A stretch of 64,000 nt of DNA, from contig OZ037766.1 in the NCBI GenBank assembly GCA_964035545.1, positions 12,347,722 through 12,411,721 on the forward strand, read 5' to 3'. Source of the DNA: Bugula neritina. Taxonomy: Eukaryota; Bryozoa; Gymnolaemata; Cheilostomatida; Bugulidae. Within the stretch, counting starts at the first letter, position 1, and the number at the start of each line of letters is the position of its first letter. This document shows, piece by piece, positions 914 through 28,100 of this stretch. A model generated the notes under the pieces. It made no database searches, was not told the origin of the DNA, and saw only the letters and a list, made by a program, of their open reading frames with translations. Both the position numbers and the translations under genes were made by a program.

Positions 914-1174
914 CAGGTCTTCATCATACTCAGGCAGTTTTATTTGCAGATTGCAGATGGGCATCTGAGATGGTTCGCCTTTAGCTACTTTAGGCTCCCT
1001 CATGAAAGCCACCCTTCCGGTTGGCTCTCTATCTTGGTCACGGATGCGTACAATAAAAGGGAGACGATTCTCTTGGAAAGCTTGGAATTTAATATGTAGC
1101 TGGGTATCATCAGACCGGGTTATTGGTATTAGGTTGCCAGCCATCTCCAGCCATTGTTCCTTATTCTCTAGAAC
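914..1174 (-). CDS. ANK: Ankyrin exon 56: end of UPA, last exon in window
   Basis: Eighty-seven codons, phase 0 to 0. [51 protein letters not shown], then a GTAAGT donor at 913. The gene continues to the left. Confidence 0.96.
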
Positions 1175-4100
1175 CTAAACACAGTGGGAGAATTGCTAGA
1201 GCTGCCGTAACAAATTACATTTTAACATGGGCTTTGTTTTCACAAATAATATAACAAACATACAAAATAATCCCAGACCTGCTTAGTTATCATATAAATG
1301 AAAGTGAAGTTTAACATACGTGCTGAGTAAGTTTTAATTAAGTCAATAAGACAAAAAAATAAAATATTTTAAGATTAGTTCAAGAAATAATTATGCATAC
1401 AGACCCTAGCTTGAATTTCTGATTATCTCACAAGGCATACCTCGATGTCTCGGCTGCGGGCCACTTCGGTGAAATACTGTTGGGTCTCCAGAGTCTTATC
1501 AATCTTGTCATCAGTCATGCAGAAGACCCTGAGACGAGCTTCTTTCTGCTCGTGTCGCTTGGCAAACACAACAAACCGAGACACGAAAGGCACATTGCAT
1601 ATTTCTTTGTAGAGGGTGTTGGCCATAGATATAACCTCAGGCACCTGTTGGTAGTCCACTAGCCAGAATCTAAAGCACAGAGTGGAGCCTCACAATGCAC
1701 ACATTCTCTAATTAATCACTGAAGCAATCAATGTATAAACAGCTGCTGCATTTCGTTCTGGTATGTAGAATAAACTTGACTGTGCTACTATTTTTCCAAA
1801 CATCCTATAGGCAAGAGTAATAAGTTAGCTACCACCATTAATTTTTAATAGAACTCGTCAGGAGAACTGATTTTCAATGAACCTCTTGATTATATAAACT
1901 CATACAGCACAGAACCTGAAAGGAAAAAATTGTTGAAACAAATTTCGCAAAGTCAAGCATGCTAGCTAGCCTAAACTTACCTGGCAGAAAAGTTGGTGGT
2001 AAAGGAGACGCAGTCATTTACAAACTTGAGAGTCGTGCTATCAGTTACATCCTTCCATTCAGCAGGGTTTTCTCCGTCTATAAAAACAAATACAAAATAA
2101 GGTAGGAAAATATGACATGCCAATCAACATTGTATCTTGAACCATAAAACATTCTATACCAAAAATCAAAGGGGAAAAATAGCAAAGAAACAAGGTTCAT
2201 GATAGAAATCCTCACAAACACATAGATATAATATAGTACACATGAATGTTGTATTTTGAAAGCTTCAAGACTGTCTTAAAAACTAACAAAACATGAATTA
2301 TATAAATGAGCCCGATTTTTATGTTAAGCTTGTGCATATTTCCATGAAATGGATAACAAAATCACATTCCAGCATGTTCTATATACTTGAGCTCACATTA
2401 TACATAACTTATACATGTATATATAAGCTAAATTACTATAGTGTCGATGAGTTGTGCACAGCCATAACAAACTGATCAGATGATAGATATAGATTATAGA
2501 TGATAGAGATATAGAGCAGCACATCACCTGCCATACTGGAGAGCAATCGAAGGGTAGCTGAACGCTGAGTGTACTGATTCGTCATCCCTTTGGTGGCAGC
2601 TTTGGGCAGAGGGAAGGTCAACGTGATCTGTTTACGAAATTGTCTCCTCCTTGGTTCTACTGTCACTACAGGGCTAACAGCCGCTCGGTTGCCATATAAT
2701 CTAGCCACAATGTCGGCCGGCACGGGATGTGCCTACAGCAGTCAACAAGAGCAAACTCTGTGACAAAGAGACAAATCTGTGATATCGGTTACAGAAACAC
2801 AACAAAATTAAAAACAAGACTTTTAAAAAATATAGAAAACTGAAGTTTTATGCTTGTAAATTTCTCTTGTAATCACCTGTAATCCAATCTTGGTGGGCTT
2901 CTTCAGAGCACCGGCAGGGAACACAGCCTGTGCTTGAGGAACCACAGTTGAGCTAATGATAGCTCCTTCAGGCCCAACCATACTAGTTTCAATTTTCACT
3001 CTAGAAACTAAGGCAAAGTACTTGGGGAACTGTGTAGTCACGATTCTAGTAATTCTCTTCTTGGCCAGTTCATCCAAAGGTTCAATGTCTGACAAGTACA
3101 ACATGCATAATAGATTTGCTTTACATTATTATTTTCTTGTGGCATTAAATATAAGCTCAACATCTTAGCATTCTCATATGGGGAAAAATAATGCATTTAT
3201 AAAGTTGTTATTTAAAGTGCAAGAAGCATGTAGTTTCATATTTCTGAGCAGATAGTCTTTTACTATCAACTTCTAAAGATACCAGATATCTTCTCAATAG
3301 CTGCCCCATAGGCTGCTGCAATGACTGAATATTGAAGCATTTTGATACTGATGAGCAGTTTGCATTGCTAAATCTCTGAAGATATCAAAGCCGGGAGATA
3401 GGCCAAGCACATGATTAATATTTCCACTATATGCTAACATGTCATATGATATAACATTCACTCGTCTCTTGACTGTAGGCTGCTTGTATAAAACCATTTT
3501 AAAGGCAACTTTGCATATCAGCATGCATCAAGCACAGCTCGGGTTTTGACGATAGCCAAAGCAAAACTTATTTAATAGCAAAGATGGTTCATATAACAGA
3601 AAGTCGAGTCAGAATCCAGTCAAGTCAATCAATGACTTAAATTAACTCAAGTCAGGTAAAATGGACTTGCAAGTTCTTGATCACGTTAATTTATGTAACT
3701 TTCATTGTAGTAGCATTAAAATTATGGTTACTTGATGAAATAATGTTGAATAGATTTTATCAAAACACTGCTAAATCACAGATATTTTTAACAAAGTTAC
3801 CTGTACCTTTCTAGAAGCGCTAAAAACTACTCAAACTTCAAATACTTGCAAAAGTTGTCAACCGATTAAAACTTTCAAGTCAAACCGATAATTCCAGCAA
3901 ATTACTGAGTTAGCATGAGTCAGAACAGGTCTGTTTATTAGTATAAGCTGAAGTCTCTTATGACCATGTTATCCTATACTGAGCAATACTGCTGTCAGTT
4001 CAGCTTACATACGAAGGCAGCAGCGCCATTTGCAATGAATAATCCAACTAAACTCACCAGGAAAATTTTCTTGATGACCTGCCAGGCAAGTTACAGATTT

Positions 4101-7100
4101 TACTTGATATTTACAGTAAAAGATAGAGTGACAACAGCTCAATAGTGTCAACAAGAAAAATTAAGCTTCAACGTCCCTATTTAGTACATACCATCAAAGC
4201 TGTTATTCACAGCTTTGAGCACAAGGTCATCGGTTGGTTTGACCTTGTGCTCCTCCCACCGCCGTCCATCCTGACTCTTTAAAACTAGAACTTCTCTATC
4301 TTCTTGGAGGGAAGCAAAGTGGGGCACCTCGATTATTACCGGACTACAAATGATAACACCAAGTTTTACTACAAACAAAATATATTTTTAGCATACAATA
4401 TTCTTAAACAGAGATATGGGAAGTTTATAAATACAAATGATGAAGTACTATAAATGAAAATAACTATTTTAAGTTACTTCCCGTGAACCTGAATGGTGAA
4501 TGAGTGGATTAAAACTTACCCCAGAAACGAAGTACCAGCTGGCCCCAAACTCACAATTCGAGAAGCCAGTGCCTCTCCATCACAGAGAGAGGGTGGTACT
4601 GGTAGCTTCTCCTTCTTAACCAGCCGGCACGTGATCCTGGTCGGTCCGGTAGCCATACCAGGTGGTATGACAATCCTGACCCCAGCATGACGGCAACCTC
4701 GCATGGCCCCACCACGAGCGTCCACCATGAAGCTGACGAGGAAGCTGAAATATGATACACATATAACATAAGAGAGTCAAGTAACAACTTGTGATTGTAC
4801 AAAAGAATAAAGCTTGTCTTACAGTAATAATACAGCCACTAGTTTGAGCTAAATGACTACAGTGTGAACAGCTGAGAGGCATTGATAAGCTGTTGGCACC
4901 AAATACAGCTGCTTCTGCAATTCACAGAATTTTGAACAGCATGCAAATTTAAAAAAATTCAAAACGTTTAAAAACGCTAGAAAAATATTTATATAAGCAG
5001 CAGTTTTGCTGATAAAGATATTATGCTTAAATTGAAGCATTGCGAGGGAAGGATTGTTAGCAATATTCAAGGTTTTTAATAGTTCTAAAGAGCATAAATA
5101 AGGTAATAATGTAACACGACATATGTATCTATATAAAGCACAGTATCTAAAATTTATTACTAATTAAACTTGTATATTACAACAACTACAAAACAAATAA
5201 AATAAAACTAAGCAACAATGAACGACAATCTAAACTGTAACATCCTTTACAACATTTCAGTATCAATACCTTTTCCATTGGAGTTTATCACTAAAAATAA
5301 ATAGGAAAACCCTAATTGAAATACAACAAATTTACAAATTATATGTTATTAAACTCTCTTTGAACATACATGCAAGTACCGAAGCTCAGACAACCAAGGA
5401 ATAGAAACGCATCATATTTACTCAAGTTCATATTTCATATGAAAAATAAATCCACATGCAGTTTGGTGTATATACTCAACGTACCCAGTAAAGACAGGGT
5501 TTCTATCTACAACTACGTTGTCGGGGTTAAAGTCTCTCCCGAAATCAGTTCCACTGTAAGAAGCCTCAATAGTTCTTCCTCTTTTTAATGTAAACACACT
5601 CCAGGGCATTAAACCTGAATGAATAAAACACAGTAACCCTATCAGAATAATATTTATATTTAGGTTTAGCTTGGAAGATATGGAAGAATACTTTTACAGT
5701 GCACAGTCCATAAATCAAGGAACTAATCTTGACTATTTCAGATGAAATAAAAGAGCTGTGACTTTTCTATATTATGATAACAAACTAAACAATTTCAGCT
5801 TGAGAGAAGTGGATAAACCTACAAAATATCAACAATATTCCAAAAAGCTTAAAGCATTATCTTCTATGTAAAGGGAGTTTGGAGGCAGGAGATTCACAAA
5901 CAAATAGGCAGAGTATTTACAAAGTAATGACAATACTGAGATTGGATACTTTCTTTTTATTAGGTAATCATGTCATCGATGCAAATCAGATACAAAAGTC
6001 AGCAAGAATAACAGGTTTGAGAGGTACATTCAGAATGCAGCAAACACAACTTACCAGGAGGTAGGGTGCTAGGAAGAGGGGGTGGAGATGTTGGAGATCC
6101 CTTGTCAGAATATGCACCTCGAACACCGACATTGGCTGATTGCGCTACAACATATATATTTAGTCCTCAGAGTATTCAGTCACACGACTTTACTTCAACC
6201 AAAATCATGTACAAATTAACAACAAACTTTTAATGTTACACATTTATAGTTATAATTCACAAAGATGGCTTCAGCCACCTCAAATTTATAAACACAAACA
6301 TACCTGTCTCAGCAACCTCTTGTCCTATGATCTCTTCAATGATTTCAGGTCTCTGTACTTTCTGCAGAGGTGGGGCGGGTGAGCTGTGTACCGAACTACC
6401 TTGTGGAACTCTCACAACCTATATATAAGCAAGTGTCAAGATAGAGATTGTGATAAACTATGTTTGAAAAAAAGATGCAGAGTGAAACCACACAATTTTG
6501 TAGAACTTTATAAGCATCTACCTCTCCTTTGGGGTCCACTACAGCTTTGCCATCTGGACCAACCAGAGCACATTCTCCAGCAGGAAGTAGAACCACCGCT
6601 CCATTTACATCACTAGCATACTGTCCATCAGGCAAGACTAAGTGCCCATCAGCTCCAGCCTCCATAATCTTAGTACCTAGAAAATGAGGAAATTAGACAT
6701 GTCCTGAAGTCTTGGAATACAACTAAAAATGCCTGAGACAAATTTACATTGACAAAAATATTACCGCCAGATTAATTTAATTATCAGATATAATTTATCT
6801 AAAGGACTCACAATGGTAATTAAATGACTCTTTTTAAAAAGAAATTTCCTACTTGAAAAGCGATAGACTAGTAAAGTTATTTTAAAAAATCAGTTCTATA
6901 CTGACACACACCTGGTGTAACTTGAAGAGGAAGTCCATTTTCCTCTAAAACAGGGTCGCCAGCACTGTCCACCACAACTTCATGTTGTACAGGTGTTATT
7001 CTGGAGCCTCTGGGCACCGGCACAGGGCGGCCCCGTGGAGAATTAACAATTTGTCCAGCTGGAGAGACTAGTAAGAGACTGCGAGGAGCTGCTACTACTG

Positions 7101-10100
7101 GTTTACCTGTGTATAACCGCATATGGATATTGTATAACAACTCATGTGATATAGAGTAGTACTACACAAAACTCTGTATTATAATGCAAACCTCAAGTAT
7201 TATAACTTAACCAACAGTACCCTAACATAACACAATAGCCTACACACCGTATTTATCCGTCACTGGGACGTTGTCGGCTCCAGTAACACTGCCATCATCT
7301 GCTACTTCTAGAATCTGCGTGCCAGGTTTCACTGTGAGTGGATGACCTTGACTGTCCTTCACGGGATTGCCGTCAACGTCACGCAGGAAATTTTCACCGG
7401 GAGCCATAATAACACTTCCTGGAAACAGCAAATACTTGAAAGCTGCCAGTACCACACTTCGTTACAAGAACGAAAACAAAAAGGAATATTCCTCACCTTC
7501 AGGAACAAAGACTGGCTGAGTATTTTTATAGCAGACAGGTTTATCGTCAGGTCCAACAACAACTTCTTGACCTGCTGGAATCTTCAATGGGAACTGAGTT
7601 TTATCCAACAATTTTCCTGCTGAAATATGAAATGTGCAGATATAGTAATAATAGCTAAACTATTGGTGAATAGAGCAATCAACACTAGCGTATCAACTTT
7701 TCTGGTTTCTCAAACTGATGAGCTACAAAACACAAACTCAGTGTACATGAAATTGCAATTCTACAAATTTAAAGATAAAATTATGTAAGAAAAACTACAG
7801 CACACTTAATAGAATTTGCAGAAAATATACCTTGGCCTACAGTAGCATAGCCATCACTGTCACCTGTGAGCAGCCTGGTGCCTGGTGTCACCCAAACAGG
7901 CTGCGAGTTGTCATCTTCAACTACTGTCTTATCAGGACATACTATATAAAGGAGTTGACCAGGTTGGGCTATGTTCACACCTGCAAGCAGTGTAGGTTAG
8001 GATTCAGTATATATCTTCAAGGGAATGTGAAATCAATACAAACATGATTTCTCAGACCAGTGTCAGAAAAAAATCTAAGCATGTAAGTAAAATTTTGAAA
8101 TAAAATGCTATATAATCAAATTGTATAGACAGCTTCTACTTTTATTTTTTCTTAAGACCAGCAGTTTTTAGACCTAATGAAAAACCAATGCTTTACCTGG
8201 TTTAGTAACAACTGGCTGTCCTCTAGCATCAAGAATTGGCTGCAATGATTCAGCATCAACAAGAACTTCCTGTTCGGGAGCTGTAATGATTGGACGACCA
8301 ACCGAGTCGCACAGCTTACTGCCATCTGGAAGTTGTATCTTGCCAGTATCATCAGCCTGAAAAATTTCCAGGCAAAAAGTGAAACAAACAACAATAAACT
8401 GACGTATCATATTTTACCGGAATAGTCTATTTAACAGCACTTATTGATCTTGAAATTAATATTAATCCAAAGCTAAACAGTTGAGGTGTATAAAATCTTA
8501 GTTGCTTTTAAATAAGCATTCTTTTGAGCTTCTCAGCAGGTAACCTATGAGAGCCTCAATCCCTGCGTGAACCCCTGATGGTAAGAGGTAGGTGCAGTCA
8601 CAGCGAAATTGGGAACAGCTTATGTTCTGGATGTAAAATGGAGCAAAGAAAGTTATATTCTGGTGAGAATTTCAGCCTGAGGTCTAAACGAAAATTTGTT
8701 AAAGAAAATTAAAGAACTTGGGTCATTGAAATTTCTCCACTATTGCACCCAAATGAATGGTGAAGAGTTATGCAAATTGCTCCAGGGTAGAACTATAACA
8801 GTAATATAACATAGTGTAGACATACTTGTAGAATAATTGTGTCATTATTAACTGTTATAGAGCGGCCTTTGTGGTCAGCTACAGGGTGGCCTTCATTATC
8901 CAGAACGTACTTCTGTCTGGGAGCAATCACCACACTTCCTGCTGGAACCACCACCACGGCGCCATCTGGAAGAAAACCAAAAGTGAGTGAGAGCTTTTGT
9001 ATAAGACCAGCAAGTCAAACACTTATTAATAAATAATATAGAAAAAGTAACATAAAGCAAAAAGCTCTTCATAAAGAAGTGAGCAGTTAGTGTACTATAA
9101 ACTGATTTGTTACATATAAATTGCAATTAAACATCAATGACTGCGCGGTGAGAGCATCTGAGTATATTAGTAAGATAGATCAGGGAGCAGCCGTGGTCTG
9201 GGCGTTACAGCACTGGCTCAATAATCAATAAACAGAAAGTCAGTGGTTCAATCCCAAATAAAGGCAATTGGTGATGTTACGCAGAGCATCCGGTCATAAT
9301 TACTCCTTAGCCACAATAGTGAAGCACTTAACCTGCTTAAAAAAGCCCTTTCCATCAGGGTTTCTCACAGAGATGGCGACTATGAACCCAGTGAGTGAGC
9401 TTATCAGTGAAGTAAATAGTGCTGAGTAGATTTAAACTATGGCCACATGACTAACCTTTGTCTATGACAGGGTGGTAATCAGGACCAACAGCTATAACAG
9501 TCCCAGGAGTGTGTTTAAAGACCTTGCCATCTGCAGAGGTCAGCTTAGATCCGTCAGGTAGATACACAAAGTTATCTGATGCAACAGTCAGCAATGAAGA
9601 GCCTATAATATGGCAGCATTAACGTCAAAATCAAACTGTGTCCAACAAACATGCCTAACAGAAGAATAAAAAATAAATCAACATTCTTATGTTGGATGAG
9701 TGCAACCATTAAATAGAGATTGGTAAAATTAGTTGTTGGCTTGTAGTAGGTCACACAGCAACATCAACTCACGTCAATGCTTAAACCACTCCCTGTTCAA
9801 CATGTATATTCAGTATGAAATTAACACCTCAATTAGCCGCTTGTGTTTTTAAATATCTGCTTGATTTGATACATGAACAAATGATTTGGTTGCTGGATAT
9901 ATTACTAATTTATACTTGCAGAATCTGGCAAATACACCTGTTTGAGTCAAATGTGAACAATAATTATCAGTGTTGGTGACATCAGTTATTCAACTCAGTA
10001 ATGGCACATTGATGGCACGATAAAGTATGAAACTGGTTAACCATAAGCATTTGTATTTATGTACCTACGGACAGTTCTTATATTAAAACTAGTACTAATA

Positions 10101-13100
10101 TTGTGTGCATAGTGTAAGTAAGTGGTGCAGTATGTAGCAAGTCCAACACCATATGTGATGAAACCACTCACCTTGATCAACGCCGAGTGGTACTCCTTTT
10201 TCATTAGTGATGGCCTTGCCATCTGGCCCAAGAATGGCCTCCTCCTGTCCAGGAATAGTGAGCTTACTCCCTCCAGGCACGGTTATGACTCTAAAGAAAC
10301 ATTTAGCTTATATGTTATTGCAAATTATACGCGAAAACTGCACTTGGATCTAATACAATTTGACATAAAATCAGAAATCATAATTCAGACAAGTATTCAG
10401 AAATGATGTGTGGCAAAAAAGGTAGGGCAATTTATTAACTATCAACTTTTGAAAACCTAACATTTTGAAAACATATACTAGAAGCAGCAACAGTTTAACG
10501 CAGTTCCAAAAATTTGTGAACTCAAGCCGACTTCGTATTGGTAGGCAACATGAAATATGACCTTTACTTGTATAAAAATGTCACTACAATAGTATAGACT
10601 AAGTTTCTTACTTTCCATTCTTATCTGTTAGGGGGGTGTCTTCAGGTCCCAGTATAACTTTGCACACATTTGGGAGAATCTGTATCTGCCTTCCTTGTTT
10701 GTCGAGCACTGGTTCTCCAGTTGCACTGAAAACATAGCCTTGGCTATCCGGGACTACCACTTGACTTCCCACCGGCACTCTCAGGGCCTTACTGTCCTTA
10801 TCTGAACCAGAAGGAAAAGCATTGCGCATTGCAACAGCTGATGGCGAGAAACTTTAATTTGTCTAATAAATGTCACAAAATGTAGCATCCTAGGGGTTGC
10901 CATTAGAATGATCTTGTCAAACCACCCAATAGTACAGCTGTGTGGTAAAAATGCTGGTAAAGTGGTTATAAATACAATGAATAGCTGTGAACCAACATAA
11001 CGTGACATGACCTTGACATCAATTTGAAAAAGAAAACTGAAACCATAGCTAGACAAATAGCTGATATATGTAAAATCATAACTAAAAAGATGTACCAACA
11101 ACCTGCTATAAGAAACACATGTATACATGTACTCTGACATCATAATACAAAAATTGAACTAATTTTTTGTAACGACAGATATGTGTAAATGAGGCAAAAC
11201 AGACATCAGTTACATTCGCTAATCAGACAATCTCCTACCCCTCAACAGATATTGATTGAACTTACTTCTTCTGCGTGAATTTAGTACCTTTACTAAATAA
11301 AAAAGGCAATTTTCTATTACAGAAAGAAGAAAATAAAATAAATGTGGATATAAATTAAAAGCTATTTGATCGAAATCACACTGAAAGTTGAATTGAAGAT
11401 TTATCAAGAAGAAACCTACTTTTTAGCAATTTATTTCCTGGCACGACTATTACAGGCTCTTTTCCACCATCAACTTTTACTGACTTTCCATCTGCGGTGT
11501 GGATCCTCTTACCATCAAGCCCCTTAATCTTCCCGTCTTTTCCAGGGGTAACAACTTGAGACCCTGGGGCTACACGAACAAACTGTCCATCTCTGTCCAT
11601 AACTGCGTAAAAACACATTATTTACAATAATTATACACACAAAAATACAATACAGTACAGGTTTGAGGAAATCATCACGATTTTGTATCTATCCTATCAA
11701 ACTTTGCTGTACATGTATAGCACATATCAAGATATTTCAGACGATCAAGATTCCTGGATATGAGGTACTACTAGAACATATTATGTAACATATGAAGGAC
11801 GGCAGGTTGTAAACTAAGAAATCAGAAGAAGCAATGAGACATGCCAGATCACCTATGAGACTCAACCGTAGATGGCCGAGTTCAGGTGACACAACATTGT
11901 GTTAGACTCAGATTTCTACAGTGGCTGGAATAGCATGCAGCCGTCACCAGCGAAGAACAGATTTAGCCTTATCTTGCAATTTGATGACATAAAAACTTTA
12001 GAGAGAACATCTCTATCACTGTGAGCAATACAACTGTGCCTACTGCCAGCTACAGAATGTTTATCTTTCATTTAAAGAAAACTCTTAAAAGAAGAATTAT
12101 TTTTTTAAGAAAATGTAAACATACTAAATATTATTATCAACTAAAAAGATAGAAGTCAAGCAGCATTAGGTTATTAATTAATATTGGAATTCAACAAGAT
12201 TATAGCATCATGCAGAATATAAGTTCAGGTATAATAAATGTAGCTGCCATGGCTATATAAAACCCAAAGTTCACATATATCATGTGCATAGACAGACATG
12301 TAGGAAATATGTGCAAACTCTAGTTGTACTGGAATTTTGCAGCTGTATTTAATTTATCAAACAGAGACATGAATACCATTCCTCATATCAAAATAAACAT
12401 GTAATGCAGAGAAATGTAAATAAAGTTTATGAAGAGAGCATGTGTACACTACCTGATTTCCACAGAGCACGCTTTTTCTTCCCTAGTTAATTAAATAGTT
12501 ATAGTCAACAACTTTCTTGAAAAAGACATTGGGCTATATTATAATACGTGTTATGGTAGATTGTAATTATCCATAGTAAAAAATGGTGTTGAGACAGAGT
12601 GGGTATATATCACATATTTGGTTATGGTATCACAGTTACCTAGATTGAAGTCAGGGGAGACAACATATGCTGCTGATTCAGGGTTAACCTTGGTATTACT
12701 TCCATTAACCAACACCTCACTTCCGTCAGGCTTGACAAGACGACCTACAAATCAGAATCATTTATTAGAAATTCTTCAACTGAGTAGAGCAGCTTTATAA
12801 GGTTGAGGTCATATCAAAAGCTGACACAGGAATGTTGACTGAACTTTCATCTTGACAGCATTTTTTAAATAGTGAGCTAGAGGTAAACTCTGTATAAGTT
12901 GTAGGACAGGTTCAGCACCAGATTTAACCAGTTTAACAACTCCTAATCATTAGAGAAGGCAAGGGGCCAACCTAAACTTAATATTTATACATGCAATCAC
13001 TGGTTGTATAAAGTATACAAGAATTGATTAGGGCGTATAAAGCCAGTCCCTGCTTTTCATTGGTAGAATTGCACTAGCTATGAAACTATCCTAACATCAT

Positions 13101-16100
13101 ACAACACCATAAAACAATTAATGTGTAAACTGTTGTCTAATACAACACTAAGATGGTGGTTTGTCTAGCATCAGATGGTTGTTATGTTATCTTATAACAC
13201 TGCAAGGGCTGTGACACATTCTTAACCAAACAAATATGATAGTCAGCCCTGCTCCATAATAGGTAGATGACAGCACTAATGTACTTACAGCTCTATAATA
13301 TGTAATAAAGTAATTCATAAAACATATACAGGATGTCAAACAAAGCATCACAGAGTGTCTTCTCTATATACTTAAAGTCTAAAATTTCATTGAGGTCAAT
13401 TGTAGACGTGCACAGCTATGAGCTCAAGTGCAAGATAAAACTGAGATAGTTGCATCTCTTTGCTTTCCTACGACTCAACAAAAGAGTTACATATAGAAAA
13501 TGAACACTTACCATCAGAGTGGGGAATAAGCAATGTGCTGCCAGACAGTACCAGAATTGGTTTGGAGTCAGCACCAAGAACAGGTAGGCCATGCTTGTCC
13601 ACCACCACCTGCTGCATTGGTGGCACCTTGATGGCTTTACCATCGGGTCCGAGGATCTGGATAATAGAAAAAAAGCTTTATAAATTGCCAAAAAAAATTC
13701 TACTAGTTAGAAGAAGGAAAGAAATTACTGCAAGACAAGATACATGCACTACACATGTACTTTATTGGACTTTTTCCAACATTCGAAGCCTATGCACCCA
13801 CCATGTAAATATTTAAAGTAGCCGTCAGTTTCAGCAGACATAAACACACTACCTTAGACTTCCAGGTAACTCAATGCAGTAGAATCACCCACCTTTTTCT
13901 TATCTGCACCGTGCAGTGTACCATCATCACCAGCAGAGGCAAAGTGGCTAGAAGCAGGGACACGCACAATCTTTCCCTGAGCAGTCGTAACAACCTCCTG
14001 GTTGGGGGAGAGAATAACTGCTGCACAGAACTTGTCCACAACTTTCACAGGTTTCATAGAGTCATCTATAGAAAACACATCTTATATACATATATAGTGT
14101 TTTAGGGCTTCAAAGATTCTGCATCATGTTGATTAAAACGATAATATATTCTAACCCTGAAGATGAATAGAGAGGTATTTGAAGTATCAGTTTGCCATAT
14201 CCTTGTATAAATAAAGTAATGATAAAATGTTTCTCATTTATCTATTTCTGATAATATATTCAATATTAGGTTATCTGTATTAGTACTGTTTGCAAAGCTA
14301 ATTGATGAGCAGAATGACAGTATGGACAACATGGCAATAATATAGTTACGGTGCGTTACTCACCAGTTACAATTACACCAGCAGAGTTAGTTACTGTTCT
14401 GTCAACATTTGGATACACCAGTTTACTACCAGCAGGCACACACACTGGCTCATCATCTTCTCCGATCACTGGTCTGCCATTAGCAAACACTATGTAGTTC
14501 TGTAGACCTACAAATTATATCCGCATGTATTACAAAAACTCAGACAGGCATTGCTGGTTTTCATTACTGAATTTAAATTAAATTATGTTCCTCCCACTAA
14601 AAAATTCATTTATATTTAAAAACAAATAATGCTTGGAAAGGCACTTCAACCACTTAGCTGCTACAACAAACCACATAACCAATGTCATTGAGTTTCAAGC
14701 TAAGTATTTCACAAGAAGCCATGGAAGTGTAAAGTTACGAAAAGATGGCGATAATTTTTTAATAAAATCAAGTCTCGTTGAAATGAATTTATCCAGCTTG
14801 TCGCTAGTACCTCACAGCTTGTATATGAAAAGTTGTCAATAGCTAATGTTAATCTCATTTCCTATTAATTTTATGTCTAAGTAGCTTACCTGGAGCAATA
14901 AGCACACTGCCACCAACTACCGTAACCGGTTTACCAACCAGGTTCACAGTCTTCATATCAGGTCCCACAACTACAAGGACATCTGGGGCCGCGTGTCTCA
15001 AGACTGCAGCTTTGCCAGTGTCAGCGTCAATAACTTGCTTGTCATTTACCTGCAGGCAGATTATTGCATTGCTAGTGTTCAGGTACACCCAGTATCAGTG
15101 TTCATTAATAGAAGTGCTAATATATGTACAGGGATTACTCAAAATCGCTTCAACTGAGAAAAACATTACAGGAAGGCAACCCAAGCAATCATGGCAGACC
15201 TAATTATAGCAATAAATCAATAAACATTTAGTATGTCAGTTATAGCATAACCTAGAGCAATCTGAGAAAGAAGACCTACAAATAATAGCTACGCTTGATA
15301 AAAATTTTGTAAAGTAGATTCACTTGTAAAGTGTCACTAACATTACAATATGCTTCACCTACATTGGAATTATTATGATATGATGTAATACAGGAAGCAG
15401 TTTACCTTGATCCTTCCATCTTTCAACGGGGTAACGAGCTGTGTTCCAGCCTCAACAACTAAAGGATTCCTCTTGTCATCTAGCGTGAGTTTGCCAGAAG
15501 GCTCCAGAATGATTTTGTTACCACTGGGTTTCACTCGGATGATGTTACCTTCGGCATCTGTGTAGGGTTTGTGGTCAGGGCCATAGATGGTGCCATCTGC
15601 AGCAAGAGAGTATAGAGAGTGCTTGTCGTGAACGAGCACTATCGGCTTCCTGTCGGCTCCGTGTAACACCTTTCCATCTGGACCAATCACTTCTCCTGAA
15701 AGATGGCAGAAAGGCAGAGACACATGAAAATCACATGCGTGATTACAATATTGTTCTACAAATCAAATCAGAACTTCACATCATAATTTCTTGACCTAAG
15801 TATTGCAAAGCCTTGGAGTCTTCCTAAAAACTAAGGGTATCGAGACATTGTTATGGAACATTATGTGGAATTCTTTTCAACACAGCATAATCTTACAGAA
15901 AGTGACAGTATTCATGCAGCCAGCCACAGACATTAGAGACAGTAGGGTCATACAATAGACAAGTCAGTACCTGAGGTGGTCAGCACATATCCCGTCTCAG
16001 AGCCGCTGTCCTCCATGTACTGGGGAGCAGCTTCAGTAGCCGTAACAGTCTCTGGTGTTGTATATATATCGTACATCCCGGGGTCTTCACCTTTAGGTGG

Positions 16101-19100
16101 GATAAACACTCCCCCAACAGGCTCGTCATTCTTCTACAAACACAAAACAGTTGAAAGTTAATTAAACCGATCACTTAACTACAGTTAGAGACTCTGTCAA
16201 AACCTAACTATTCACTTACTTGCACATGAGTTGGTGCTGATGATTGTAATATCCTTTCCTTTACTTGGAAACTGCCATTACGGCTAACTTTTCTCTTTAG
16301 AGAAGAAAGCATTCTTTAATTTTTTAGAAAAAATTATGAAACCATGTTGAAATTTCAACTCATAATTTCAAATAGCAAATCTAAACTGCATGAAGCTAAG
16401 ATTCATGTATAACTTTGTCAATGAGTGTAACTAGTGTTTTCTGCAGCATTAAAAATGACGTAGAGCTTGCTTCACAGATCTGCCAACTACTTTATGGAAG
16501 TAAGAGACTAGAATATGTTCATATACAAAAAAGAATTAATATCTATTGCAAAAATTTTTGCTAGCTGTGAAATGATGCAAATGCTAAAGATGCTTATTCT
16601 TACATTGAGTAAATAAAATAAATTTAATTATTGTAGAAATAGTAATTTCCTGCTCAAAAACTACTACACTGTAGTAATTGGTCTATAAAATCTAAAGGAA
16701 AAAAGTTTAGCATATGGCAGGTCTGCTCAAATGGGAAAAGTGTCAGTGCTACTTTGACCTCTACAAATATTCCAACTACCTGGGAAAAATGCTCTCTAAA
16801 TGTTTATGTACTTTGTAAATATTTGTTGGCAGCTTTTAAACATGTCAAGCGATGCCGACTCATAATATGTGTGTAGACAACTCCTAAATGTACACAAGAT
16901 TAGTTACCCCATAATCCTGTCAGAATTATCAGGAGAAGAAATTCATAATCAAAGGTCAGAGTGAGTTGGGGATAGAAAGGCAAGATTGCCAGTTCTAACA
17001 TAAAGGTCTGAAAATGTCAGTAGGTCTTGGATACAACAAGGTATGTTTAATGAATAGGACGAAGGAAACAGACTGTTAATGCTAGCAACAAGAGAAATTT
17101 TCATACATCAAACTATTTTCTTTCAATCAAGTTCAGAAAATAAATTCTAACAGTTTTTATCTTGACTTTAAAAAAATTAAGATTAAAGTAGCAGACGTGG
17201 CCAAAAAGTCAATCGTGGTGAGAAATAGTCAAGAACGTTCTTAAAATCTTAAAACTGTGTTGAATAATTACAATTACTGTAGTGGGATGCTAAAAGTAAA
17301 ACCTACTTCAATAACTGCCAACTACAACTATTTTATTTGTAAATCCTCTGTATTTTGCAAGCTTTATTGCTGTCAATGTTAAGCAGAAAAATTACTATTC
17401 ATGAGAGGAGTGGTGAAACATTTAAATTTAATTTTGAGATAATCAATTTCAACGTGAAATTGCAATATCTGAAGGAAGCTTTTAATGTTATTTCAATGAT
17501 CACCATAGTGAAAATATGCAAGAATGAATCCGGTAGAAATGCAAAAATATCAAAACCACAAAATTAACATTAAAAATCTACATGAGTAGAATAAAATAAC
17601 CAAAAAAATTGCCTGATGAACTTTGACAGAGTTTTATAGTACCTATGGTATGTGCATGTGCTCGAAATGCTAAAAATTGCTATGTAACACTATTATAGAC
17701 ATACACTAGAAAAGTGTAACACTTTAGAGGCCAATGGGATAATAATAGAGCAAATTTTGCATATTTAGTTCTTTGTACTATTATTAGAGAAATATATTAG
17801 CCAAGAACTGTGCTGAGTGTAAACTACATAATGTGATCTATTTATAAAACAAAGGTAGAAAAACAAATTACACATAAAAAAAACATAATGTGAATGAAGA
17901 GAGTATTGGAGAAGTTAGTATGTTATTGGTTGAGGTACTGCAGAGTGGTTTGGAATACACATTTACACTTCACTGACCTTGTAAACTAAGTATAACAAAG
18001 CCTACCAAGTATATTATATATGGCAATTACACATGAGTACTAAATTTAAGACATCAACCCCATATGTGTACGAGTGTAATTATTATAGTCTGACCATGTA
18101 CAAATATACGCAACAATGACAGAAATAGGAAAAACATATACTACCTAACCACCTTTGCATGCATGTTTGAAAATGTTTAATGATTGCGAAAAATGTATTC
18201 TATCATTATGATGTTATCACGTTTTACTCATTTAGGAGCAGTAGCCTAGTGGAGAAATTGAGATAGCCTAACTACCGTTACTCACATCCTTTACCATTTA
18301 TAAAACAGCACCGAAGCCAGCAGAACAACAAACATCAGTAGCAGCTGCCAACATCAACACAACAACAATTTCAGCAATGAAGAAAGTATAGACATAGAAA
18401 GAGGAAGATATGTGGCACACAAACCTCATCTGGAGGAGCGGAGTCATCAGGAAGCTGAGTCTTCCAAAGCTCAGTTTCATACAAATTATCGATTTGACCA
18501 TCACCAGCGAGTTCGATGGAATGTGTGGGAATATTACTAGATAGCAGCTGTTGTTCCTATAAGCGACAACATTACTACATACATAGTGAGGCAACAACCA
18601 GCAGTGATAGCGTGTTACAACAATAAGCATGTGCATTAGATGAGCCACATTCATTACATTTCATTGTTTCATAGCAATAAGATCATAGAAGTCTTTTAAG
18701 GAGAGAAAAACTCCCAACATTACATGTTTACTCCTTAAAATGAGTTGAAAGGAAATTTATCGAAACATCTTTTGAGATTTTAGCAGTCAATAATGTATAC
18801 CAAAATAGATTTATTTGCAATTTTCATTTATCTTCGGAATTCTTTACATTAATAAATAATTATGGAAAATCGATTACCCAACAAAATTAAAAATAATAAA
18901 TTTTTCGTATTAATAATCTTTTTAAACATAGTGGTAACAGAAATTGAGCTGGATAATACAACGAAAAGTTAAGTTTTAATAAATAGATGCTGCATTCCAC
19001 ATACTCAGCTAGGAAAAGAAAAACAAAACAAAGCACGAAGGCAGCAAAAAATACTCTCAGCATGTGTGTAGATAAAGTAGAAACAAAATATTGGAGAGTT

Positions 19101-22100
19101 TCACAACACAGCTATTAGTAATGTGAAGGATAAGACTCAGCATGAGACTTATCTTCACCAACACTCACCTCTATAAATTGATCATTTCTATCTAAACTAT
19201 CATCAAAGTCTCCGGGGAAATTTCCCATATGACCAACATGCTTACCACCCTGTACAAAGCACCATATAGAAAAAGCATAGTTTAAAATTATAAAAAAAAC
19301 ACAAAATATAAAGCTATAAAGGCATAAATATTTTTACAACAATCAAATATGGAAAGCCTTGCACATGCATGGAGCTATTAGTACAATGTTATTATAAATT
19401 AAGAAATCAGGAATCATGGGATCAAATGAAAACAACCAAAGACTAAGCAACAGTTGACAGAGTTGAAAACTTCAGACTATTTGAATTAATACCAAAGAAT
19501 TTGTTAGGGCTTTGGGGTCCAGCTACATATGTTCATATATTCTGATGTGATAGCACATTTGCTTTATTATTTGGACCAATCTATCATTTTCATATTATAC
19601 TCTCTCCCACCTTTGGAGTTGGGCTCTCCGCACTTTCCTCTGCTACGAGTTTTAAAGAATCCGATTCAGTTTGGTAGACTGGGTTTTGCTGTTTGGTAAC
19701 AGCAGCATGGTGCATTCTAGCAGCCGCGACTGGTGCTGAGATATCAATGTCAACTGTCTCATTAACCTCTAGAGAAGGAGTTATGTGAGTATCAGGAGAG
19801 CTTGTGTCCTCGCGTCTCTTGTGATACTTTCGCTGAGACGGAGATGGTGGAATTTGGTGTTCACTACCAGTGCTCTTGGGTGGTGATTCCACAACCTTGC
19901 TTCGACTAGGAGCTATTGGCGCTGTATCCAATGATGACGTATCCATAGCTGGTGAGTCAGGTGAAAATGGAACAGAGCGAGTTTTAGGATTAGTTTCTTG
20001 GCAGACCGATTCGGAAGCATCCTGAGGAATGAGGCTGGGTGAGTGGCTGACGTCAACTCCTGCAGGTCTCAGCGAAGTAGGCTGATATGAACAATAAAAT
20101 GGCGCATCTTCAGCCAATTCAGTAGTCAAATTGCCAGGTTGAAGACGCTGTGATGGTTTTGGCTGTAATAATTGTGAAGACTGGTCTACAGCTTTGGGTT
20201 TGATTGAATCTTCCCCTTCAGGTGATACTGAGTGAGGAGCTGACGTAGATTGTTGACCTGTACCGGGTTCAGGCTGAGTGGATTCTGTATATACGTGGTC
20301 CGCATCATATCTAGCATCAATATCACCAGCATTACTACGTTCAGACGGCACTGGGTGAAAAGCTGAAGCAGAAAACTGCTCTGCAGCGAGTTCAATGCTA
20401 GAGTCATTCCTTCTACTACGATCAGACGCAACTGGGCGAAAGGATGATGCACCCGACTTATCAATAATGCTACTACGCTCAGATGGCAGTGGATGAGACG
20501 ATGGTGTAGAGGTATCATCAGTAGTCGGTACATCACCGGATCCATTCTGTCCAGCTGCTTTTACAGATGGAACATGCAACTGCTCACCAGTTTCCATAGA
20601 CTGCGTCTTGGGCTGAGCTTCTACCACTGAACCAGCACCTCCCGGTGATTGAAGTGGCAGATTCTGATAATCAGCAGTGACAGTTGGAAGAATTTCTTCC
20701 ACTTCCATAGCTTGAGGAATATTTTTTATGGAGCGTTTGCTTGCCCGGGGTGGACTGCTGCGGTAGCTTGTTGGTGGCAAAGATTGTTCATCGGGGTGAT
20801 CTGATATTGTGTCAACGGGTCTTTGTCTAGATGGAATATTCTGATAAGGAGACATGGCGGATATAGAGATTTCCTCATATGGGATTCCTTCAATAGAAGC
20901 TATACTGTCACCGTCGCCTCTCTTTACTGGGGTTGCTGGAGTAGTATCTCTGGGGAGACCTCGCTTTCGGGGGCTTGGTGAAGATTTTGAAACTTTTGAA
21001 ATTGAGGAAATGGAGGCTTGACTGCGAGTTCTGGGAACTGGTGCTTGCCGAGCAGAGGCGGACATTTGCGGGTGATGATGCGACTCCTGGTAGGCGTGAG
21101 GGTAATCAAGAGACTCAACAGAATACGAGGGAAAAGCACCGCTTTGCTAAAGGTGATACAGAACAAAGGCTAGTTATACAACACATAATAGCAACAAATC
21201 TAATGTTAACAGAAACCGTGCGGAAAGCATCAAGCGAGTAAGTAAAGGCTACTACACACAACACCAACTATTAGACAACTAAACTGTGCATATAAGTGTG
21301 CAGCACTTGAAATAAAATACCATTGAAAGCTCAGGTGAAGCAGGATCTAAGATCTCATCATACTGCTGTGAAGGTAAAGCAAACTGCTCTCTGTTAGAAG
21401 GCTGCGGGGAAGAAGGACTGTCTATTTCCCACGGAGCAGCATTCTTTGTTGGACTACCGGTGGCAGTGTTACTAACAGACAAGCGTGGCGCCACCACCAA
21501 AGGGGTAGCAGCATAGCTTGTCAAAGACTCGCTATGAGCAAGAATTCCCTGTGTGAGAAATATATTAGTACATGCGGTAGCAGCGGAGTTAAGGAAGCAG
21601 CACCCACAGGTAATGTTTAAAGCAACAGTAAGCAATCATAGTACAAGCAGAGAGTTTCATAGCATTACAGAATAAATTTAATTCTTCACAAAACATTAAA
21701 TTTTAGAAATGAAAACCATAAATTTATCATGCAAGAGAATGTTGAGTAACAATAGCTCAGAAACCAAAGTGAAAATAAATATTAAAAATTAGTCTAACTT
21801 TGTTCTTGCTACATAGTTAAATTCAAGCAAGCACATCTAGTTTAATAAGGGGGCTTTGACTAAGAAAGCCTGCTAGGGTTAGAAAAAGTGTTAGTTCAAA
21901 CCAAAGTTTGCAACAAAATATTTAACAGTTTTTACTGCAATTACATACACTTCATCTATACTTTATCTACTTCTTAGCATGGTATACAGTAACCACTATG
22001 CATGTATCAGACAACACAACCGAACATAAAATACTAAAAGCAACAATTAAAGAAAAAATAGAGGAACAACATAAAAGGAAGCACATCAAACAACCAGAAC

Positions 22101-25100
22101 TTCTTGACACTCACCTTAGCAGAGTTTAGGCTTGTTCTTGACCTTGCTTTTGGAGTGAATTGTCTGATGCTGCCTTTAGATATTGGACTGAGCTGCTCTA
22201 CATAGCTTTCCTGGTAAAACAGTTGAATGTATAATATTTAGGTAGAGAGTATAAAACATAAAATGCTCATAACGCTACATGTTTATTTAAAATGATTAGA
22301 GAAAACAGAAAATAATCTAGACATATTACTTGATGGTCTAAGCCCTAAGGGTACACATGCTGAGCATGTATCATAATTTCTAGAACATTCCTTAGACTAA
22401 CTGCTGATAATCATAGCCAAAATATATAGTAGAGTCAAACATACAGCACTATGACTGTGTTGCATCAGAATATAAGTTGACTTTGATGTGTACAAATAAA
22501 AACGGGGCCAACTAAAAATGTAAGCAGGGTATAGGAATAAAGAACTGTTACTGCAGAAAAACATAATCATCAATACAACAGTCCGGCATGCTGCCTTTGA
22601 CTCAAAAACCTGACAGCAGACACAAAGTTCATCAATTATCGTAATACCTCTGCATAAAGTTCAGAGTCATCAAAGTTGTGAGTTCTCATGGCTGCCTCCT
22701 GTTCTCTGCTGCTAGGCTCATTCTACATCATATGAGTCACAGTTTAAGCTTCTATCAACTGTTCTACTTTTCAAGTATTTTATTTACTGGAGGAATGGTG
22801 CGTCAACTCGTGTTCAAAATATTGAAGTTTTCAGCATTGATAGTGTACATTGAAAAAGAATGTAACTGAATAAATGTTGCTGAAAATATCAACTAACCCT
22901 TTATAGTTTTTAGCAAAACTGCACCAAATTACTTCTAAGTAGAAATAAGTGTTTACAAAAACAATATTTCAGCACCATTTGAAACCATTTTTCAAAAAAA
23001 GAACTAACTTATAAAAATTATGAACAGGTTTGCAACAAATTAAATATAGTTTCACAGCTATTTATCATGCCTGAGACAGAAACTTGAATAAGCGTGTATA
23101 AAAGAAAACCATAATGTATTTTTAGTATCAGTGAGGGTTGAGTTTATTGCAGTCATTGCAACATCAAATTATAAATACTCAACACAACTACAAGTGTGAG
23201 CCGTGTCACGTGCACAATATATTGTCAGATGAAATAAACAGATTCATCATATCTTCATTTCAGTACTGAGAGTACAAGCCTGTATTACGAAACCACAATG
23301 CCATTGCGCGTAGAATCCTGCAAAATTAATGCCTTCGGGCAAAGTCAGTAGGTTACAACTCACCTTGAAAGAGTAACTACTTCGAGCTGCTCCCTGCATG
23401 TAGTCATCTCTTGACGACAGGAACGGGTATTGGTGTGAGAACACGTCATCTGCGTCTGCAAACAATTTGTCAACATTCACTAACCATTTTACAACCAAGT
23501 CACAGTGACAGCACGTAAAGTTGATGAAAAATATACACGATTTAGAGAAAAGGGCATGGCTTTAAAACTCTATAGAAAAACAAAACACTCAGAAATGTTA
23601 GTGTATGATGTGAGATTAAGAAAGTGCAGGCATTCCATCTCAGCATATACGGTGGGTGTCTTTTGCGAGTAAAATAAGGGAAGACAACTACACTAACCCT
23701 AATGTTAAATATATAGGCATTACATCCAATGTAAGAAACTGCATAATAGAAACTATTCAGTCTTATAGATGGGAGAATGAAATTTAATTAAAACAACTAG
23801 TCACCAGCTGAAAAAAATTTACATACAAAAACATTATAGAGTATTTAAAAAGGTGTGACAAAAATGAGATGCAGCAAAAGTCAAAACTGGAAGGATAAAT
23901 TAATAAAAGTAACACTCGTCATTCAAAACCCACTTACTACAATGCATTGATGAAGACATGTGTGTATAATATGGCATATACACACTATCTGAGTCAATAA
24001 GACTCATGCTAGTCTGACTTGGGGTTGTTAGAGTTCCAGACATATCTGTATGTATATTTATTATAATAAATAATACACCACTAACAGTATCAAATACACT
24101 TGTCAATATACTACACTGTCAACAGTCGACTATGGCTAAAAGAAGCTAGATAACTATGAGCCTTTTAATATAGACATTGCAGTTTGCGTAACCATTTAGA
24201 TTTATCACCTTAAAAGGATAGAGGAGACAAATCTAATACACATATAATTATTTCTGAACCAATTATGATGTCATATCACACAATTACTAAAGCAAATGTT
24301 TATGCCAACTGCAATCAGCATATATAAAAGTACTGAACAGATTCAAAAATCTGCTCACCCTCAATATTTTATCTACTTGAGATTATTAGTACCAGGGCGC
24401 ACTGCCTACCTTGCTCTTCTTCACTGTCGCTAATGGAATGCTCCTCCATCTTCTCAGGGCCGACCATAGAATATTTGAAGTCTTCGTGAAGGTTTTCAGT
24501 AGACGCTGAGACAGTTGTTACTCCTTGTAGAACTTGCTCCAGGGAGACATAACCCAGTCTACGAGCTATTTGCAGGGCTGTCACGCCATTCTACAATACA
24601 CAGGAGTATTCATGTCTGACAGTCATGTAGACACCATAAAACAACTAGAACACACCTTGTCCAGCACAAATCCTATTGCTACTCCAATTTATGTAATGTT
24701 CAAGTTTACATAACATGGCTATCTGCCTACCCAAACATAAAAAATATGGTGAATAATAAAGAAATGTGGCAGTACCACATAATATATATAATCTTACATT
24801 GGTTTTGGCTTCAGGAGTAGCTCCAGCCTTGAGTAAAATATTCACCACGAGAACGTGACCTTGCTGGGCTCCTTGGTGAAGTGGAGTGTAGCCAAGCTGT
24901 GACAATCAAAAGTAATGCATAACAGGCTAGAAACTAGTGTTGAGTAGCAGGTCTTACCAACAATGTCACTGTAAAAATTTTAGCACATGAAAACTAACAA
25001 ATACTGTTCAAAATAGGCTACAGTGTTCTGTAATGACTCAAAGAATGTTGTGGAGGAGTTTTACAAATGTCAACTCAATGTTGAGTGTGTGTTAGTGTGA

Positions 25101-28100
25101 ATACAAGATAAAAGGGATGAATAATTAGCTAGCTCTCAACAGCATTTTAAGATGAAGTATTTAGTGACGACACACAATTGAAATCAATGGGACAACTCCA
25201 TGTTTATTCTTTTTGAAAATTCTGGTTGGTCTTAAAACAGAAATAATGCGAATATGTTATAAATAGCATACCCTTGTTTTAGCATCTACTTCTGCTCCCA
25301 GTTCCAGGAGAAATCTCACCATATTAATTTGACCAAAGTGACTAGCAGTGTGTAGCGGAGTGTAACCAGCTTTGGTGGTCGGGTCAATACGAGCGCCGTA
25401 CTTACACAGGATCTCAGCAACATGCACATGGTCCTCTTGGGCACACAGATGCATCGGGGTTAGTCCGTTCTGAAAGCATACCATGACAGCATCAAATATA
25501 AAACACAATCCACAACAGAACTGCCAGTCAAACACTTAGAACATACTTTGTGTAATCTAAAAGTAAAAAGCACTCAGCATAACACAAAAAGCACCTGGTA
25601 TCTAACAGCCTGTAGAGTACTGTTGTCATCAGTTTTGAATAAATCATACATTATTCATGAGAAATCAATATCTCAGGTGAAAATACTTGCTTTTTAAATT
25701 TCATAAAATGCAATGACCCACTTTCAACAATATGCACTCAATATCACGCCAAACTTAAATTATATTTGTAAAATTAATTACACAATTTTGAACCAATGAA
25801 TATTATTCAATCAAAAGTTGTAGCGCTATTGACAACGGTATTAACTATAAGAAAATCTAAGGAGACTCAAATATGATTTTTGAGACATGATTAAAGTCTT
25901 AGTGTTAGTAGGTTGTGTGGTGCTGCATAGTGTATGATAACAGCACTAAATGCTATAAAAGTATATCAATTGTCTAACTCAGCTCTTTCAACATCTGTTA
26001 GTATGATAAGTTGTAAAGTTACCAACTCATTCATAGCATATAAAGCTCAGCAAACCATTAACTCAATCTCGGAATCATTAACAGCAGCTGACCCAGTTCT
26101 TCAAATTATTGATTATCCCTACTGGTAATGGCTGCAGTGCAGTAGAGTCTGAAGTACTAGTGTTTATAGCAAAGCTTGTTGCATAACAATAAACAGAACA
26201 TATTCTGACTTCATGTCGGTAGTAATGAATATAATGATGCCATATTATTATACAGTTTAAATAAAAGTAATGAAGGTAGTAAATGTCGGAATAGTAGCTG
26301 CAGTGCTAACACTTAGCAAGAGAAAAAGGGACGGGAGTAGCATCAATTGTAAATAAGTAGTAGACTTACGGTTGCATAGCAATTAGAGTTTGCTCCATTC
26401 TCTAGCAAAAGTGACACCATGTCGGTGTGACCTTCTTGTGCGGCTAAATGTAATGGTGTGAAACCATTCTTAGACTCGGCATTTGCTCTGGCACCGTACT
26501 CCAGCAAGGATGTGGCAATGTCCATTTGATTCTTTTTGGCAGCAATATGCAATGGTGTGTAACCATTCTGCAAACACAAGTAATAGTATTCTTTATAACT
26601 CATTTAGTGGCGAAAATAGTTAACAAAACAAACAACGTATCACTAATATTATAAAGAATAATATCACCTAGTAAATATAATACAGGTTATGTCGCAATGT
26701 AAATTAGCATATAATAAATATCAGCATACAGAATAAATTTATTAATTAATAGTTAATGAACCTGAACATATGTGTATACTTTTACCAAACTATCACAATT
26801 TAGCAGAGTAACTTTCACCTTAGCTTGGCAGTGAGGAGAGGCCCTAAACTCCTCCAGTAATAGTAGTACTATAGTAGGTCTGTTATAGTGGGCAGCTACA
26901 TGGAGAGCTGTTAATCCATTTCTTCCCTGCATATCAGGCTGGGCACCTCTTTGCAACAACAGCCTAGCCACCCCGTGTTGACCATATTTAGCACTTATGT
27001 GAAGGGGTGTCATTCCCTTCTACAAGCACAACATGAACGTGCCCACCTTGCATCACAGAATATCAGTGAAAACATTTTGTCAACATTGGAAACAAGTTTT
27101 TCTTTAAATAAATAGTTTCACTAATTCTCTGTAATTTATTATTAGGCATATTCAAGATAGATGGCAAATGGCTAGTAGATGCACTAGACTGTTACCTTGG
27201 TGACAGAATTGGGTGAAGCTGATTGGTCAATGAGTACACCAATCACTTCCTCGTGACCTTCTTTAGCTGCAATGTGTAGCGGAGTGTAGCCGTCTTTAGT
27301 TACAGCCTCGACGTCAGCTCCATGTTGTAAGAGAAGCAGCACACTATCTACACTACCCATTCTGGCAGCGATGTGCAGGGGAATCTGTAGCTCCTGTGGA
27401 ATAATAAACTTGCATTAAATAAATAGATAAATAGCACCACTTGCTGTTCCAAAAGAAACTTAAGTAACACCTTAAATAAAATATATTTTGCCTATAATAC
27501 AAGGTAAAGACTACTAAAACTTTGTAAGCGCACCGCACAGCAAAACACGAGAAAACTGCAAAAGAAATAAATTGAACAGTAAGTTTATATGATATTTTAT
27601 CTCTATTGACAAAAAAACATAACTGTAGCATACTTGTCATGTATACTGCGAATGTTTATGAAAAAATACACTAACAGCGATACTAAAACTAGCTCACCCT
27701 TGCTTTAGCATTAACATCAGCTTTGTTTCTAAGTAAAATTCTGATAACATCTATCTGGTTTGACCGAGACGCTAGGTGAAGAGGTGTTTCGCCTCGCATG
27801 GTTCGCCCGTCCACATCAGCGCCATTGTTGAGTAGTGTCAACACTATGCTCATGTTGCCTAAAAATTCAATTATATATAAAAACATAACATAAGCAAGAA
27901 CAAAAACTAACAAAAATCATACATTCAAACATGAGCTACAAAACATATATAGAAAAAGCTCCTAGGTTTGCATTTCTAGTCACTAATTCTCATTCCTCTG
28001 GCAGCAACAACTTTGGCAACATGACTAGTTTACCAAATGAACTGACAAATATAAAAACCTTTGAAAATATTTTACCAAGCAATGATATTAAAACCTGTGT

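Follow-up and report, generated by a model that had tools for sequence, protein, structure and literature searches.

What separates the membrane cargo-binding half of an ankyrin of the bryozoan Bugula neritina from its spectrin-binding half, and what might so long a separation do? Ankyrins set the seating of membrane proteins on the spectrin lattice, and the gene in question lies on the minus strand of a 64,000-nucleotide stretch of contig OZ037766.1 (assembly GCA_964035545.1, positions 12,347,722 to 12,411,721), here called the window, to which all unlabelled coordinates refer. The species is borne out by a mitochondrial contig (C295, 15,248 bases) of the same 215.8-Mb, 295-contig genome, whose COX1 matches that of B. 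neritina, a cheilostome, at 100% identity along all 510 residues of the query. An earlier sequence-only reading had placed an undescribed repeat domain of 19 exons and ~936 residues between the ankyrin (ANK) repeats and the ZU5 domain of this gene. The gene is predicted to encode a giant ankyrin with a repeat array at a new position, and the repeat is unnamed in Pfam and NCBIfam. There is about an even chance that the array, a run of ~111 octads encoded in one frame and likely forming a chain of β-hairpins, keeps the two binding halves apart as a stiff, elongated spacer.

The octad repeat and the gene that carries it

The array repeat in the ankyrin gene is real, and its fundamental unit is an octad, with a hydrophobic period of 8.24 residues and 112 turn anchors over 931 residues, i.e. 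~111 copies. The sequence-only reading had instead counted roughly 35 units of 25 residues, a length equal to three octads; the alternation of strands with PG and DG turns that it described is evident in the octad pattern. The mean octad is x-P-D-G-K-P-V-V, with glycine at 71 of the 112 turn anchors, a share that is somewhat self-fulfilling because the anchor scoring rewards glycine. Tests of the period itself are independent of that scheme: the hydrophobic autocorrelation at lag 8 is 0.337, whereas none of 1000 shuffles exceeds 0.133 at whatever lag, and the spectral power of the hydrophobic period is 39, compared with at most 10.7 in 200 shuffles, for which the grid was four times coarser than for the real sequence. 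With a profile of nine units from the second half of the array, the first half scores 59.1 bits; none of 500 shuffles exceeds 8.7, and the reversed half gives -9.2. Octads are further gathered into larger groups, of 33 residues (four octads) and 58 residues (seven octads), which alternate irregularly, and the likeness between octads peaks at a lag of eleven octads (3.84, where the mean is 0.88 and the standard error is about 0.8, with 15 lags examined). No column of the unit alignment is invariant, the turn glycine alone being nearly so.

The position of the array between the ANK repeats and ZU5, also proposed in the sequence-only reading, is confirmed by a one-frame chain of 17 well-supported exons (15695-6522, 915 residues). 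The first of these, all of which are on the minus strand, lies at 15406-15695 (96 residues; the exon used for folding), and those that follow, taken from the computed splice/coding chain, lie at 14890-15049, 14364-14507, 13893-14065, 13512-13656, 12640-12744, 11420-11602, 10612-10801, 10172-10290, 9456-9602, 8826-8965, 8197-8356, 7831-7980, 7497-7616, 7248-7418, 6912-7106 and 6522-6676. In the eighth exon the acceptor at 10801 was picked by the repeat register, the chain's own pick being 10837. A doubtful 30-base-pair exon (12453-12482, minus strand, phase 1-1) would add ten residues that break the octad register, which is restored without it; for this reason it was dropped and is excluded from the final counts, whereas its residues were included in the Pfam and NCBIfam scans, the autocorrelation, the grouping by 33 and 58 residues, the half-profile test and the searches for relatives. 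Thus the exon run proposed earlier stands, with its count and length changed to 17 good exons and 915 residues, plus one doubtful exon. The array extends slightly beyond 6522, into a further minus-strand exon (6304-6418) that opens with the last octads (VVRVPQGSS) and then departs from the pattern. The cassette from 15695 to 6304 runs from phase 1 to phase 1, so that the frame is kept if it is skipped.

Comparison of 16 units of at least 24 residues reveals that codon positions 1 and 2 are identical at 48% and position 3 at 29%, a contrast that is partly built in because the units were selected by protein likeness. The value for position 3 is close to the 27% expected from base composition, and agreement there is 34% even where units share an amino acid. 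With position 3 near background and positions 1 and 2 above it, the array units look old, and the protein pattern, rather than the DNA, appears to have been maintained. Phase 1 introns account for 13 of 18, and 9 of the 12 phase-1 introns that lie in codons starting with G split a glycine codon (p 0.0003). The introns thus seem to fall preferentially at the turn residue, which would suit growth of the array by addition of whole strand sets.

The gene model is a computed splice/coding chain, predicted from the genome sequence by joining exons that are bounded by acceptor-AG and donor-GT sites and agree in phase, and comprises ANK repeats, a linker, the array, two ZU5 domains, UPA and Death. From the last ANK exon (24590-24410) to UPA the chain has 37 exons and 2374 codons in one stop-free frame when the doubtful exon is omitted, and 2384 residues, likewise stop-free, when it is kept. 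Scored across 6422-15970, the chain reaches 416 on the minus strand, compared with 87.5 on the plus strand, 43-78 in three shuffles and 0.2-104 on the plus strands of six other 9.5-kb pieces, with a codon model whose training was partly on these same array exons. The cargo-binding half comprises ANK-repeat exons at 24410-33613 (minus strand; 14 exons by hand list, with the N-terminal exons and some middle repeats incompletely resolved); Pfam Ank was found in all four of those scanned, and the computed chain is open across this part for 809 residues with no stop. Between the last ANK motif and the array lie 884 residues encoded by Ser/Pro-rich linker exons (15971-23455, minus strand), one of which, likewise Ser/Pro-rich and from the splice/coding chain, is a single exon of 1536 base pairs (21146-19611, minus strand). 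This exon holds one S-x-I-P motif, SPSLIPQD; S-x-I-P motifs bind EB proteins.

The spectrin-binding half is encoded at 914-5614 (minus strand), with ZU5 matched by Pfam in two stretches (E 1.4e-35) followed by UPA_2 (E 3.1e-50). A Death domain follows UPA in a hand-pieced stretch just outside the window (locus L009; E 6.5e-17), so the order of domains is that of an ankyrin. Beyond Death the same locus contains a long open frame with 12-residue repeats of SPADEPQ type (window coordinates about -3563 to -5629). More widely, the Bugula genome has 27 ZU5 matches, and 20 of them lie in the contig region C4:11043255-13076762, a cluster that possibly reflects an expanded ZU5 gene family.

Relatives of the array and of the ankyrin

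Scans of the array with Pfam and NCBIfam gave no model reaching its cut-off, which agrees with the earlier statement that no named family could be recognised. The Pfam matches to DUF6799, DUF7232 and LTD all fall below cut-off, as does that to Tcp10_C, the TCP/G-box domain of CPAP (10.1 bits against a cut-off of 36). The literature on ankyrins and on PDG or octapeptide repeats, covered outside subscription journals and preprints and mostly at the level of listings, names no such insert.

The claim that the repeat was undescribed holds in that it is unnamed in Pfam and NCBIfam; arrays of PDG octads are, however, present in unrelated proteins. A search for relatives of the array among proteins of about 518-1646 residues (7999 candidates scored) gave a single match at E 0.5, to an unnamed ENA protein (P0121) with a clean PDG-octad array of period 8.35 following DUF7507 domains. 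When bacterial and archaeal genomes were scanned with the P0121 array, three of the six loci found were real arrays. Two of these (L018 and L020) are open reading frames (ORFs) with PDG-octad arrays in metagenome-assembled genomes (MAGs) of Clostridia. The third (L019/L035) is a 7.5-kb contig of a marine MAG (L035:1-7524) that consists of one open frame of 2507 residues with long octad stretches, one Pfam filamin repeat (PF00630, E 3.6e-12) and, by eye, perhaps an incomplete second one where the frame begins. Binning assigns this MAG to Rhodopirellula; the contig itself may or may not be bacterial. The other loci, L021 (which we take to be TolC-like), L022 (presumably RNA polymerase β′) and L023, are short or chance matches rather than arrays. 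A scan of viral contigs gave one locus, L024, with a few scattered PDG motifs, and one of a phage collection gave no PDG-octad array. In P0121, L018 and L020 the sequence C-terminal to the array has a helical look on inspection by eye.

The Bugula array shares with these proteins a long head-to-tail run of the octad x-P-D-G-K-P-φ-φ. Against L019 it scores 125 bits, more than any of 40 octad-phase shuffles, whereas with octad order shuffled the real score is attained in 4 of 40 cases for L019 and 9 of 40 for P0121. Likeness to the other PDG-octad arrays is thus shown at the level of the octad only, not as common descent, and in the case of L019 the question of descent is left open because of the 4 of 40 octad-order shuffles that match the real score.

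Relatives of the ankyrin itself were sought with residues 1000-2384 of the 2384-residue construct, i.e. without about the first 110 array residues, among proteins of about 1311-4172 residues (7991 candidates scored). The 120 relatives listed, of 1702 matches, include 49 octopus isoforms and many vertebrate proteins, and their best local alignments have 49-62% identity over about a third of the query. Searched against these 120 by phmmer with default filters, the array gave no row at E 10, and the unit profile, with filters off, gave only seven noise rows (E 7-9); the array is thus seen in none of these listed proteins. Of the 120, 106 have a recognisable ZU5 start motif, and two of these, which lack preceding ANK motifs (P0003 and P0066), were left out; in the remaining 104, 120-415 residues separate the last ANK motif from ZU5, compared with 1911 in Bugula. 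A ZU5-UPA tree of 22 rows places Bugula on a long branch beside Owenia with weak support (82/81), and was not used further.

Predicted fold and possible role

Folding the first array exon alone with AlphaFold gave a mean predicted local distance difference test score (pLDDT) of 42.8, which rose to 65.1 (predicted template modelling score 0.40, i.e. medium confidence) when the other exons were supplied as the alignment. In this model short strands recur about every 8 residues, with residues 31-50 near pLDDT 80. The structure prediction proposed in the sequence-only reading thus supports the strand rhythm for one exon; it did not yield a match to a known fold, all E-values in a Foldseek comparison with the PDB being 0.42 or worse.

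Among described folds, the best analogue of the array would be the TCP/G-box domain of CPAP. According to PMC3776556, this domain is a free-standing sheet, one layer thick, of ~20 antiparallel strands that follow one another in the sequence; the turns between them are of type I, many being PDG, and a defined hydrophobic core is absent. Of such features the PDG or PG turns and the 8-residue rhythm are present in the array; for a single-layer antiparallel sheet the structural model is too weak. It is because of this analogy that a hairpin-ribbon spacer was adopted as the preferred reading, and the presence of PDG-octad arrays beside folded domains in other proteins is counted in its favour.

The octads, each a strand with a PG or DG turn, would fold as antiparallel hairpins into a continuous ribbon, as in CPAP. 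With a rise per β-strand of about 0.48 nm, 111 strands would make a rod of roughly 50 nm, or a shorter one if wound as a solenoid. Such a rod could separate membrane cargo from the spectrin lattice, and might also prevent the linker from bending back onto the ANK groove, which is the autoinhibition reported for the short linker of ankyrin-B. As the cassette can be skipped in frame, it is possible that cells make ankyrin isoforms with and without the rod. A wider and distinctly more tentative proposal is that PDG-octad arrays form a hitherto unnoticed class of hairpin rods that support themselves and serve as rulers in unrelated proteins, of which the ~111-strand copy in the bryozoan ankyrin may fix a splice-switchable distance between membrane and spectrin.

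It is also conceivable, if rather doubtful, that the array is rich in β-structure and yet forms a parallel β-solenoid or several β-propellers, giving a shorter, thicker rod or a string of beads. The grouping by four and seven octads and the peak at a lag of eleven would suit such folds, as would the weak Foldseek rows, which include sialidases and designed proteins, the latter presumably propellers; each coil or blade would, however, be expected to have the same number of strands, whereas fours and sevens alternate irregularly, and the E-values of those rows argue against any real match. A search of the PDB with one profile of the array (A2) likewise returned designed WD40-type proteins at a summed E of 6.7e-10, a value that is the sum of many sub-threshold repeats (at most about 8 bits per repeat in two alignments), and a WD40 row is absent at E 1 from the Pfam scan of the array. 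Moreover PDG turns, typical of hairpins, fit the hairpins of a CPAP-like sheet. That the array serves chiefly as a surface for binding or regulation, e.g. a binder of proline-rich peptides or a new autoinhibitory linker, seems unlikely: 111 degenerate octads suggest length, and the absence of invariant columns other than the nearly invariant turn glycine offers little in the way of a conserved site. The linker upstream of the array is itself Ser/Pro-rich, and precedents exist: one edge of the sheet in the CPAP TCP domain binds a proline-rich peptide of STIL (PMC3776556), and in vertebrate ankyrin-B the linker between ANK and ZU5, for which a length of 111-113 residues was used in ankyrin-G and ankyrin-B, binds the ANK repeats intramolecularly and autoinhibits them (PMC3663501). 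The active part of the ankyrin-B linker is, however, encoded by one small exon.

The preferred spacer reading presupposes that the array belongs to the ankyrin. It is very improbable that its exons derive from another gene or are seldom spliced into ankyrin; the entire cassette can be skipped in frame and the model depends on genome sequence alone, whereas the phases join both sides on the same strand without a stop and the introns are only 78 to about 1040 base pairs long (the largest, 11603-12639, being that without the doubtful exon). Descent from the D1 domain of the bacterial flagellar rod and hook proteins FlgF, FlgG and FlgE deserves hardly any credence. NCBIfam models of FlgF type match the array with E-values of 6.2e-9 and 9.9e-8 (a reversed piece and a shuffled one gave nothing at E 1), the unit profile ranks FlgF first among PDB entries (E 0.67) and the Pfam D1 model reaches E 0.0009, below cut-off, on the L019 array. 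These NCBIfam E-values, however, sum several short matches, the score being 35.5 bits against a cut-off of 288; the real E. coli FlgF gives just 3.6 and 5.4 bits against the array, and the Pfam scan of the Bugula array lists no match to the D1 model at E ≤1.

Comparison with giant ankyrins and other strand-turn arrays

The likeness of the array to the flagellar D1 segment consists of a few consecutive strand-DG-strand-PEG elements. With the TCP domain (Tcp10_C) of CPAP/SAS-4 it shares PDG turns and short strands, which in CPAP are of ~7-9 residues (an estimate, from ~20 strands in 150-190 residues); a free-standing sheet is predicted for the Bugula array as well. By contrast, the strands number about 20 in CPAP and about 111 in Bugula, and the protein is a different one.

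The arrays of P0121, L018, L020 and L019/L035 have the same octad as that of Bugula, with periods of 7.95-8.65, and are purer PDG repeats in unrelated proteins. In the two that were scanned for domains, P0121 (DUF7507) and L019 (Filamin repeat), the array adjoins folded domains.

In the giant ankyrins surveyed in PMC5135030, the very long exons precede or follow the death domain. The Bugula protein has in common with them the ankyrin family and long, repeat-bearing extra sequence; its array lies instead between ANK and ZU5 and is encoded by 17 small exons, an architecture that, as the sequence-only reading had anticipated, is unlike those giant insertions. The array is thus not a long exon of the giant-ankyrin kind, whereas the separate long open frame after Death in the same gene does fit that kind, and the SPADEPQ-type frame has the same placement as the post-death-domain long exons of the protostome forms in that survey. 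Because the gene also has this frame, the array is, on the predicted gene model, an addition to the protostome giant-ankyrin design, and the gene carries both kinds of extension.

Thus, whereas the giant forms covered in PMC5135030 lengthen around the death domain, the Bugula ankyrin lengthens at the joint between its binding halves. If the array is rigid, the spacing between membrane cargo and spectrin becomes a testable quantity, and the PDG-octad arrays of an ankyrin, of an ORF with a filamin repeat and of bacterial MAG proteins would be one kind of spacer.

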